This document shows, in pieces, positions 40,891 through 44,878 of a stretch of 64,000 bases of DNA. The notes beneath the pieces are model-generated. The model had not been told where the DNA came from, did not search any database, and was given only the letters and a program-made list of their open reading frames with translations. A program made the position numbers and the translations under genes. This DNA is from Ancylothrix sp. D3o (lineage in GTDB: Bacteria; Cyanobacteriota; Cyanobacteriia; Cyanobacteriales; Oscillatoriaceae): contig NZ_JAMXEX010000001.1 in NCBI RefSeq assembly GCF_025370775.1, positions 372,001 through 436,000 of the forward strand. The letters run 5' to 3'. Positions within the stretch are counted from its first letter, which is position 1. Every line of letters begins with the position of its first letter.

Positions 40891-42891
40891 ATGGAAACAA
40901 TCAGCAACCCACCCCTTAATTCACCCACACCTGATCTCGAAGATAATAGCGTTCAATCAGGAGAAGCTTACTTTATCCGACATGGGGAAAGTACCAGTAA
41001 CGAGCGTAACATTTTTGCCGGCATTTTAGATGTAGGACTCACCGCCTTTGGCAAACTGCAAGCACGTCGCGCCGGCACTGATCTTAAGAAAAAAGGTATC
41101 AAATTTGATGCCGTTTATGTTTCCCACATGAGACGAGCACGGCAAACTTGTGAAATTGCTCTTGCAGAAAGTCAAGCCCTAAAATCTCCTGATATTCCTA
41201 TTCATGTAGATCACCGCATTAGCGAGCGTTCTTTTGGTCTTTTTGCCGGCAGAAACTTAAATTTATTGCGTTTAGCTTTGGGTTATGAAGGCTTCGAGGA
41301 AATGTTACATTCCCATAACGAAGCACCACCAACCGGCGAAAAAATTGCCCAAGTTTATGCCCGCGCTTCCAGCTTTTATGAAGAAAAAGTTGTGCCGCAT
41401 TTAAAAAGAGGTGAAAACGTTTTAGTTGTTTGCCACCAGTATGTTTTAGAACCGCTGGCACTGCATTTAAGCCATTTACCACCAAGTGCTTATCATACTC
41501 TGAAATTGCCGAACGGAAAAGCACTGAGTCGGGAAGAGTTAGTTAAATATCGGGATACAGAATCAAGTGGTGCAGCTTCTCTGCGGAAAAAGATTAACGA
41601 TCTTTCAACTATGTGGGCAATTATGCTTTATGCCGGAGCATTTTTGCTAGGTACTTTAATTAAAGCTGTCACCGTTTCCGCAGGAATGCCGGCAGAATTA
41701 TTTAGAGCAATTATTGTTCTGTGCCTTGGCATTTCCACGTTTTATACTTACCTAGACATTGACTTTGCCGCCAGTAAGAAAAAAGTCACACCAACGATTA
41801 AAAATATCGTCAATTTTTGGATGGTAGCTCGCTGGGTTGTGGGGCTTTTCTTAATTTTTTCTGGAGTTTTGTCTCAAAATTCAGGGGATTTTTACAAAAT
41901 CTTGTGGGTGCTTTTCTGGATGGTGCCGCCGGCTCTTACTTCCTCAGTTTTATCAATTTTGTGGGGAGGCAATCTTTATCCTTCGGCTGTTATTTCCAGA
42001 ACCTTATCAATTATTGCGCCGCTGGCACTTCTCGGTACTTTAATTGTCGCCGGAAATCGCTTACCTATTAACGTTGCGAGTTTACAATTTTTCTTTCTGA
42101 TTTTGATTTTGGGTTTAGCGGTACCCGGAACTCTTGCTCAGTTGTGGCGTTCTAACTCTCCTGTTGACTCAAACCGGCATAGCAAAGAATGGAAATTTAT
42201 CGGCGTTTTGGCGGTTGCATTTATGGCATTAGCAACCGGCTTTCAATTTGCCCCAGATACTTTAATTTCGGATGTTTTTTCGCCGGTTGATACTAATCGC
42301 TCATTTATCGGTTTTCAACAGCTTGCCGTAGCACTTTTGGTATTTTTGTTAATGCGGGTTTTGGCAGTATTAACTGTAACTTTTGCCAAAGGCAAATTAA
42401 ATCATGCCGAAGCCCAAGATGCTTACATTTTGCTTGTCAATCCCAACTTTTTCTTGTGGGCGGCTCTTTTTAGCGGTGTAACTACAGATGCGAGTTCGGA
42501 TACTTTAAGCTATGCAATTTTTTGGGCCGGTTTAGGGTTTTTCTGCATTCCTGTACTTGAGCAAATTTTGTTTATGAATGCCTTTACGTCAGACATTCTT
42601 CGGGAAACCTTAAGGTCTTCAAGAATGGCAACAGAAGACGTGAAAAAACTTTTCCATAATTTAGATGCCGATGGAAGTGGAGTCCTCGACAAACCCGAAA
42701 TTATTGAGCTATTGGGGTTAATTGAAGATATGACTGTCGGTGAACGCAGTTCCGAAGAAATGCGTAGTTACATCACCGATTATCTTTTCAACATTCTTGA
42801 TAATGACAAAAATGGCACGGTTGATTTAAAAGAATTGGAAGACTATGTATCAACCTATGGGATGGTTGTCAACTTAAACATTGCGGAATAA
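40891..42891 (+). CDS. Histidine phosphatase - membrane - EF-hand fusion
   Basis: 666 aa with an unusual order. Residues 24-210 form a phosphoglycerate-mutase-like histidine phosphatase: RHG (30-32) with nucleophile His31, the ERSFGLFAG loop and a second catalytic His182 in VVCHQY. Residues 240-565 hold about eight to ten membrane segments that I cannot assign. Residues 585-655 carry two EF-hands: DADGSGVLDKPE (592-603) and DNDKNGTVDLKE (637-648), each with calcium ligands at positions 1, 3, 5 and 12. The phosphatase resembles dPGM (RHGESTSNE, DVGLTAFG) but is not a normal glycolytic mutase. A calcium-controlled membrane protein with a cytoplasmic phosphatase head is my inference. Confidence 0.85.
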   Translation: METISNPPLNSPTPDLEDNSVQSGEAYFIRHGESTSNERNIFAGILDVGLTAFGKLQARRAGTDLKKKGIKFDAVYVSHMRRARQTCEIALAESQALKSPDIPIHVDHRISERSFGLFAGRNLNLLRLALGYEGFEEMLHSHNEAPPTGEKIAQVYARASSFYEEKVVPHLKRGENVLVVCHQYVLEPLALHLSHLPPSAYHTLKLPNGKALSREELVKYRDTESSGAASLRKKINDLSTMWAIMLYAGAFLLGTLIKAVTVSAGMPAELFRAIIVLCLGISTFYTYLDIDFAASKKKVTPTIKNIVNFWMVARWVVGLFLIFSGVLSQNSGDFYKILWVLFWMVPPALTSSVLSILWGGNLYPSAVISRTLSIIAPLALLGTLIVAGNRLPINVASLQFFFLILILGLAVPGTLAQLWRSNSPVDSNRHSKEWKFIGVLAVAFMALATGFQFAPDTLISDVFSPVDTNRSFIGFQQLAVALLVFLLMRVLAVLTVTFAKGKLNHAEAQDAYILLVNPNFFLWAALFSGVTTDASSDTLSYAIFWAGLGFFCIPVLEQILFMNAFTSDILRETLRSSRMATEDVKKLFHNLDADGSGVLDKPEIIELLGLIEDMTVGERSSEEMRSYITDYLFNILDNDKNGTVDLKELEDYVSTYGMVVNLNIAE

Positions 42892-42976: not shown

Positions 42977-44863
42977 TTAAGCTTGATATTTTGAACCATC
43001 CGGCATTGTTGCGCCTTCTAAAAACGCTCCTTTTAACTCAGAAATACTCACCTTTGCATCTTTTAAATTTGCTCCATTCAAATACGAACCCTCCAAAATT
43101 GCCCCACTCAAACTCGCATTCCTCAAATTTACACCACTTAAATTTGCCTTACTCAAATCAGCACAAATCAAATTTGCACCCTTGAGATTTGCACTACTTA
43201 AATTAACCTCCATCAACTTCGCAAAACTCAAGTCCGCCTCCACAAGATTTGCACCGCTGAGTTTACATAAACTGAGATTTGCATTATTTAAATTCGCTTC
43301 TCTCAAATTAGCATTACTCAAATCACTTTCACTTAAATTTGCTTCACTCAAATTTGCTTGTGGCAAGTTAATCTTCACTAACTCAGCCCCCGAAACATCT
43401 AAACCTCTCAGCGAAACACCATCCTCATTCAAATCTTGCAAAGCTAAAATTCTCGCATAGCTGACTTTTACATGATGGGCTGCATCAATGGTACTCCAAG
43501 CTTGGTAATGAAATTGTTTTCGTCGATCTGGCGCTTCTTTAATAAATAAAACCACCGCCACCACTAAACTAATCGCATCAGCGCCATTTAACACCTCTCC
43601 TAGCCACGATTCTTCATCTCCAATTACATACACTACAGACATCACAACTGCGGCAATTAATGCAACTTTCCAAGCCGGCAATGACCAAAATATCTCGTTT
43701 AATTTAGCCGGCAATTCTTTGAGAGCCTTTCCCCAAGGCTGTTGAGAAACTAGCTCTTTAATTTGTTGATACTTTTCCGTTATGTTGTTCAAAAATTCTT
43801 GAACAATCTCGTTATTAAATCCAAAGCTGAATAAACCCGGCTTTGCTTTGGAACCCTCAACTTCGTTTAATTCTTCTTTTGCTTCTGGCTTAGATTCTGG
43901 CGGTTTTTGTTCTCGCACAGAAGCGGCAGAAATTTCTCTTGCACCTTTTAACATTTGCGCTGTAATTAATCGCAACGCATCCCCCCACGCATCCTTAACT
44001 TCTTTTGTCCATTCGTCGCCCAAATATTCCTCAAAAGTGCTCAATAAAGCTTGTCCAACGGCAGGGTAATATTTGGGAATTGCCCCATAACCAATATGTC
44101 TTGCTCCCAAAACATTTAAAACCTGTGCCAATGCTTCTGGATTTCGCAGACTTTCTACAACAACTACTAAAGAATTTATCAGTTTTTTGTGTTGGTTGGT
44201 CATCTCTGTTTTAGCAAACAACGGTTTTACTTCTGGATGCGCTTCAAAGAGATATTCATAAAATCTGGCAGCAAATTCCTCGGCGCGAGGTTTAATTTTT
44301 TCAAAGCTATTTTCTAGCAGTTCCACCGGCAACTCTTTTGTCACCGAGGAGTTTTCTTCTTCGGTAATAGATGCCGGTATTTCTGTTGGCTTCACCTCTT
44401 CTTCAGTAATTAAAGTTTTGTCTTTAACGTTAGGTTTTTCTGATTTTTCAGTTACCGATTCTATCCCCGCACCTTTTAACATTTGAGCGCTAATGGCAGC
44501 AAAGGCATCTACCCAAGCTTTTTTAACTTCCGGTGTCCAATCTTTCTCTAAATATTGCTCAAAAGTTGTTAATAAAGCTTGTCCAACCGCAGGATAATAT
44601 TCAGAAATTGCCCCATAACCAACGTGCCTGGCTCCCAAGGCATTTAAAACTTGTCCTAACGCTTCGGGATTTCGCAGACTTTCTACCACCAAAACCAAAG
44701 AACTTAACAGCTTTTTTTGTTGCTTTTCCATATCGGTTTTAGCAAAAAGCGGTTTTACCTCTGGATAGGCAATAAACAAGTTTTCGTAAAAGCTTACTGC
44801 AAATTGATCGGCGCGAGGTTTAACTTGCTCAAAACTTTGCTCTAAAAGTTCCACATCTAACAT
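42977..44863 (-). CDS. Double-globin membrane protein with pentapeptide repeats
   Basis: 628 aa. Two globin domains (about 3-135 and 180-310) are near copies of each other. Each keeps a proximal His in GARHVGYG or GARHIGYG (His80, His256), a B10-like Tyr in FYENLF/FYEYLF (26 and 202) and an E7-like Gln (48 and 224), as in flavohaemoglobin-type globins. There is no reductase domain. A charged linker, two hydrophobic segments (about 396-415 and 427-442) and a right-handed pentapeptide-repeat region of A(N/D)LxxA units (about 485-620) follow. The ATG at 44863 has GGAG eight bases upstream. It follows the 105-aa gene by 15 bp, so the two form an operon. Confidence 0.88.
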   Translation of the reverse strand: MLDVELLEQSFEQVKPRADQFAVSFYENLFIAYPEVKPLFAKTDMEKQQKKLLSSLVLVVESLRNPEALGQVLNALGARHVGYGAISEYYPAVGQALLTTFEQYLEKDWTPEVKKAWVDAFAAISAQMLKGAGIESVTEKSEKPNVKDKTLITEEEVKPTEIPASITEEENSSVTKELPVELLENSFEKIKPRAEEFAARFYEYLFEAHPEVKPLFAKTEMTNQHKKLINSLVVVVESLRNPEALAQVLNVLGARHIGYGAIPKYYPAVGQALLSTFEEYLGDEWTKEVKDAWGDALRLITAQMLKGAREISAASVREQKPPESKPEAKEELNEVEGSKAKPGLFSFGFNNEIVQEFLNNITEKYQQIKELVSQQPWGKALKELPAKLNEIFWSLPAWKVALIAAVVMSVVYVIGDEESWLGEVLNGADAISLVVAVVLFIKEAPDRRKQFHYQAWSTIDAAHHVKVSYARILALQDLNEDGVSLRGLDVSGAELVKINLPQANLSEANLSESDLSNANLREANLNNANLSLCKLSGANLVEADLSFAKLMEVNLSSANLKGANLICADLSKANLSGVNLRNASLSGAILEGSYLNGANLKDAKVSISELKGAFLEGATMPDGSKYQA

Positions 44864-44878
44864 TATCAATTCTCCATT

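Follow-up and report, generated by a model that had tools for sequence, protein, structure and literature searches.

The locus described here raises the question of whether a single protein of the cyanobacterium Ancylothrix sp. D3o unites a histidine phosphatase, a multispan membrane domain and a pair of EF-hands, and of what such a protein would do. The gene lies in a stretch of 64,000 nucleotides, which is referred to as the window; its features are collected in Table 1.

Architecture and conservation of the fusion gene

The open reading frame runs from ATG to TAA through 666 codons and contains no internal stop. A Pfam search of the protein identified the histidine phosphatase domain and EF-hand models at residues ~585–607 and ~630–657, several of which exceed their cut-offs, and hydropathy places a membrane domain between them. 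A homologue scan with one genome per species returned 39 loci, a few of them short or marginal matches, and nearly all are cyanobacterial. The 27 complete homologues were aligned with the window protein (28 sequences), to which they are 54–77% identical over the alignment, and all 27 share the whole layout. In close pairs, dN/dS is 0.01–0.07 for the head and mostly 0.06–0.18 for the membrane part and the EF-hand tail; the single value of 0.32, for an EF-hand tail, comes from a pair with a very small dS. Since dN/dS is well below 1 in all three parts, each part is maintained by purifying selection. Together with the layout repeated in 27 homologues, these ratios show that the fusion is neither a chance reading frame nor an artefact of assembly or frameshift that joined neighbouring genes, a reading that we regard as refuted and to which we give practically no weight. 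The union of a histidine phosphatase, a membrane domain and an EF-hand pair in one protein is thus confirmed, and the first-pass annotation, which had joined the three parts in one protein and in one frame without a frameshift, was correct on both points.

The gene is patchily distributed. The intact gene or a remnant is present in 13 of 386 cyanobacterial genomes, with nine copies intact and four broken: one has no head (G039), one consists of a head only, with a stop (G099), and two are fragments (G127 and G174). An intact copy with 54% identity also occurs in a Desulfobacterales MAG (L029:4717-6666), where its GC content of 34% differs from that of its flanks (47–52%) and where it stands among genes, identified by eye, such as that of NAD-dependent DNA ligase. 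This copy looks like the result of lateral transfer, and the MAG could be mis-binned. A plasmid search returned only ordinary phosphatase matches.

Among the degenerate copies, three in two Microcoleaceae MAGs (L038:5908-6894, L039:3662-4652 and L040:2-949) share nearly the same internal deletions, with only residues ~11–92, 348–393 and 480–666 left, a pattern that inheritance or spread of a decayed second copy would produce. In a headless copy (L033:5968-7299, the same region as L166), the frame starts at residue 234 and is preceded by an unrelated PPILSPTRGEGE-like stretch, which is perhaps a repeat insertion.

Table 1. Features of the locus and their positions in the window.
Feature	Position	Strand	Evidence or remark
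Fusion gene (histidine phosphatase / predicted ten-helix membrane domain / EF-hand pair)	40891..42891	+	666 aa; layout shared by 27 complete homologues
dPGM-like histidine phosphatase head, residues 27–209	40969..41517	+	Pfam His_Phos_1, E 1e-32; alignments with dPGM of the PDB
Predicted ten-helix membrane domain, residues ~239–564	41605..42582	+	Hydropathy, charge, AlphaFold, Foldseek, VIA-align
Predicted break of helix 4, residues 345–351 (VPPALTS)	41923..41943	+	Model; P346–T350 invariant
Predicted break of helix 9, residues 516–518 (VNP), followed by invariant N519	42436..42444	+	Model and conservation
EF-hand loop 1, residues 592–603, DADGSGVLDKPE	42664..42699	+	Positions 1, 3 and 12 invariant (28/28)
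EF-hand loop 2, residues 637–648, DNDKNGTVDLKE	42799..42834	+	Glu at position 12 in 25/28
N0, two globin domains, membrane segment and pentapeptide repeats	42977..44869	-	Pfam
N2, orphan protein of 105 aa	44879..45196	-	

Phosphatase head and EF-hand tail

The head belongs to branch 1 of the histidine phosphatase superfamily (Pfam PF00300, E 1e-32), with R30, H31, R82, E112 and H182 invariant in all 28 sequences; these residues cover the RHG motif, the second catalytic histidine and the pocket's arginine and acid. Its best match in the PDB is a phosphoglycerate mutase (1fzt, E 4e-25), and it scores 94.7 with the dPGM model TIGR01258, above the cut-off of 81.7, so automatic annotation may well name the protein a mutase. 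We take Y92, K100, R116, R117, G185 and N186 (E. coli numbering) to be the residues by which dPGM binds 3PG and 2,3-BPG. In the head, Y92 corresponds to F115, R116 to L139, R117 to H140 (in 27 of the 28 sequences), G185 to Q183 and N186 to Y184, while the position of K100 is mostly occupied by L123; the residues that follow the second catalytic histidine are changed as well. Because the residues that bind 3-phosphoglycerate are replaced, the head is unlikely to be a mutase, and a glycolytic phosphoglycerate mutase is an unlikely identity for the protein despite its TIGR01258 score. The residues argue for a phosphatase whose substrate would be other than 3-phosphoglycerate. The earlier label of "dPGM-like" holds for descent and probably not for mutase function: the protein shares the fold and the catalytic residues of dPGM, but its 3PG/2,3-BPG residues are replaced and a membrane domain and EF-hands are attached.

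The changes in the 3PG pocket and after the second catalytic histidine could also be read as the mark of a pseudo-enzyme, in which the head would control a calcium-regulated transporter by binding a ligand or as a structural element. We consider this quite improbable, since the five residues listed above are invariant in every sequence, which is unusual in a dead enzyme.

At the other end of the protein, the two 12-residue loops carry acidic or other oxygen ligands at positions 1, 3 and 5 and Glu at position 12, and EF-hand_7 exceeds the Pfam cut-off. In loop 1, the invariant residues are D1, D3 and E12, so that it is canonical in all sequences. Loop 2 is canonical in 25 of the 28, and three Pseudanabaenaceae sequences (L025, L026 and L027) have Lys in place of E12, so this loop is probably a poor calcium binder there. 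The claim of two canonical EF-hands is thereby upheld. An EF-hand pair is also found in the calcium sensor CSE of Anabaena, likewise a filamentous cyanobacterium (PMC7065334), but CSE is a small Ca2+-binding protein and has no reported membrane or phosphatase domain.

Predicted fold of the membrane domain

Alignment-averaged hydropathy and the positive-inside rule give ten membrane segments in an N-in/C-in arrangement, at the top of the range of eight to ten that had been proposed. The head and the EF-hand pair are both predicted to be cytoplasmic. Pfam gave no credible match for the membrane region of the window protein or of its 27 relatives, and SBF (PF01758), Mem_trans (PF03547) and Na_H_Exchanger (PF00999) matched none of the 28 members at E values up to 10. 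In profile comparisons with ACR3, BASS, AEC, SBF, Mem_trans and Na/H exchanger proteins, nothing rose above the controls. Membership of SBF, AEC or the Na/H exchangers by sequence was rejected, as the scores are no better than those of EamA controls or permuted profiles, and the resemblance of "VPPALTS...LWGGN" to "APCTAMV...GN" of ACR3 is for that reason not evidence. An internal repeat relating helices 1–5 to helices 6–10 was not detectable by sequence.

The AlphaFold model of the membrane domain (28 close relatives) contains ten helices and is of moderate confidence (mean pLDDT 69.8, pTM 0.74); the full-length model has a pTM of 0.45, and the relative placement of the domains in it is uncertain. 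In the model, the strongly conserved VPPALTS and VNP interrupt helices 4 and 9, respectively. The best 20 Foldseek matches in the PDB are the bile-acid symporters ASBT/NTCP and the auxin transporter PIN8, with probabilities of 0.97–1.00, TM-scores of 0.35–0.47 and a best E value of 5e-3, which is weak. All 50 entries listed by VIA-align are ASBT, NTCP, NHA2, NhaP, SOS1, SLC9C1, KefC, NhaA, PIN or LYCHOS, and the best Z is 11.1 (ASBT, 247 residues), although helical bundles can reach such values by chance. The membrane domain probably adopts the ASBT/NhaA/PIN fold of 5+5 helices, an assignment that rests on the uniformity of the VIA-align list and on the coincidence of the helix breaks with conserved motifs. 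The earlier statement that the segments belong to no recognised family thus stands for the sequence, as judged by Pfam and the profile comparisons, and probably falls for the fold, and the suggestion of a transporter is supported insofar as fold prediction and comparison favour a transporter-type membrane domain of this class.

The likeness to the ASBT/NTCP and NhaA/PIN/SbtA class lies in the predicted 5+5 helices, in the breaks of the fourth and ninth of them and in the best structural matches. However, there is no detectable sequence relation, and the sodium sites are not recognisable in the fusion protein, which additionally carries the phosphatase and the EF-hands. Transporters of this class bind their ions and substrate at the breaks in helices 4 and 9. 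Several charged residues within the membrane segments never vary, among them R314, R370, R489 and E557. The helix-5 aspartate of the CPA Na+/H+ antiporters is absent from the 28 sequences, in which, by the model-based helix numbering, R370 is invariant and no acid is. With this set of residues, an anionic substrate would be a better fit than classical Na+/H+ antiport. SLC9C1, SOS1 and KefC, all in the VIA-align list, offer a precedent for a transport domain of the same fold that is governed by attached cytoplasmic sensors. They are regulated by cyclic-nucleotide, autoinhibitory or RCK-type domains, whereas the fusion protein has EF-hands and a histidine phosphatase instead and lacks an invariant helix-5 acid.

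With conserved catalytic residues in the head and conserved ligands in the EF-hand loops, both a calcium-gated transporter and a calcium-controlled membrane phosphatase are possible. In the latter, the transporter-fold domain would be a ligand sensor or an anchor, with no transport, and the EF-hands would switch the head. The head is indeed the most conserved part, with the lowest dN/dS in most pairs and a mean column identity of 87% versus 82% for the membrane part; its catalytic residues do not vary, and the VIA-align list includes a sensor protein, LYCHOS. The conservation of the membrane domain, however, far exceeds what an anchor needs, and some of its most conserved motifs sit at the breaks of helices 4 and 9. 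We regard a membrane phosphatase without transport as rather unlikely.

Gene neighbourhood and proposed function

Neighbouring genes were clustered at 26 loci, which represent 25 distinct regions because L016 and L161 share a contig; one genome contributes two of the regions, L162 and L163. In the window, N0 and N2 both adjoin the fusion gene on the opposite strand and are convergent with it, and the stop codons of N0 and the fusion gene are 85 bp apart. N2 has no match in Pfam or NCBIfam and no credible match in the PDB. N0 recurs at 22 of the 26 loci, N2 at 20, N3 (an EF-hand NADPH oxidase) at nine, N4 (a bestrophin-like channel protein) at six, and N10 (another EF-hand membrane protein) at a few. 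As these loci had been picked for carrying N0, N3 or the fusion gene, the counts for N2 and N4 and those over whole genomes are the more independent ones. Same-strand runs typically have the order N3–N2–fusion gene–N0 (L034) and, with one extra gene, N3–N4–N2–fusion gene–N0 (L159).

Among the 386 cyanobacterial genomes, 13 carry N0, and it is precisely these that carry N2. The fusion gene or a remnant is present in 11 of these and in two further genomes without N0 and N2, and all five genomes with N3 have N0, N2 and the fusion gene or a remnant. The hypergeometric p-values over the 386 genomes (2e-24 for N0 and N2, 1e-17 for the fusion gene and N0, 2e-8 for the fusion gene and N3) ignore shared ancestry and are a guide only; physical linkage across genera is the firmer evidence.

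N3 is a close match to the dehydrogenase and transmembrane domains in 5o0x and 5o0t, crystal structures from a "putative ferric reductase" that we identified as csNOX5 from the description in PMC7317449. The ferric reductase, FAD-binding and NAD-binding domains that Pfam finds in N3, in other genomes, are absent from the fusion protein. Both are membrane proteins with EF-hands, which in the fusion protein are predicted to sense calcium, and a close csNOX5 relative lies near the fusion gene in several genomes. The similarity between the EF-hand regions is weak (E 1.6e-5), the catalytic and membrane domains are unlike, and the EF-hands are N-terminal in NOX5 but C-terminal in the fusion protein. 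No N3 (NOX5) match was found in the window genome, so NOX5 is not an obligatory partner. The PADLOC models of anti-phage defence matched none of the six module proteins, which speaks against a known defence system for the gene or its neighbours.

At one locus, a further membrane protein with C-terminal EF-hands lies between the globin-pentapeptide gene and the fusion-gene homologue (L157:7924-9228, minus strand), and a truncated remnant of a protein of this type occurs elsewhere (L161:13086-13382). Two genes downstream of another homologue, a protein combines a receptor-type periplasmic binding domain with a C-terminal hydrophobic, possibly channel-like region (L013:8425-10773).

The neighbourhood as a whole points to an undescribed calcium-and-redox system. 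We propose, at an even chance, that the fusion protein is a calcium-regulated secondary transporter, or a channel or sensor derived from a transporter, of the ASBT/NhaA/PIN class, which carries a phosphatase head and works within a calcium/redox module. The EF-hand pair, attached straight after helix 10, would sense a rise in cytosolic calcium, and its calcium-loaded form would alter the state of the membrane domain, of the phosphatase head or of both. The protein may act in one physiological unit with the csNOX5-type EF-hand NADPH oxidase and the globin-pentapeptide membrane protein. Calcium gating, transport and its substrate, the substrate of the phosphatase and the link to redox are what we infer from the domains and the neighbours.

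Enzyme and transporter could also be coupled: the head would dephosphorylate a cytoplasmic phospho-compound, the membrane domain would move the product or the phosphate, and calcium would set the rate. This scheme would fit a hydrolase fused to a transporter-type domain, the several invariant arginines in membrane segments and the changed dPGM pocket, yet the pocket is without the residues with which dPGM binds small phospho-acids, and the genes that recur nearby are of redox and channel type and form no metabolic pathway. We hold it to be improbable.

A wider and speculative form of our proposal, to which we assign a low probability, likens the module to the oxidative burst of eukaryotes. In this bacterial equivalent, a calcium-triggered oxidase module would rely on the fusion gene for the transport of ions or anions. 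Calcium in the cytosol would turn on the EF-hand NADPH oxidase, which would export electrons to oxygen; the fusion transporter and the bestrophin-like channel would, in parallel, balance charge or metabolites; and the haem globin would serve as a sensor of oxygen, NO or superoxide.

The combination, with which the first-pass annotation was unfamiliar, is not described in the open-access literature that was searched: neither an architecture of histidine phosphatase and EF-hands nor the gene set was found, which is weak evidence of novelty. For cyanobacteria or other bacteria, a survey of bacterial EF-hand fusions (PMC7016017) mentions those of the 7TM, Tic110-like, NO synthase and NADPH oxidase types; the terms histidine phosphatase and phosphoglycerate are not present in its main text. 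The parts of the protein are of known kinds, and their combination and the module appear to be new.

Few effectors are defined in bacterial calcium signalling, and the sequence of the fusion protein predicts a direct route from calcium, through the EF-hands, to transport and dephosphorylation. csNOX5 is the structural model for human NOX5, and a close relative of it lies in the neighbourhood of the fusion gene. Should the module work as a single system, genetics in culturable filamentous cyanobacteria could be used to test in what physiological context csNOX5 and bacterial calcium signals operate.
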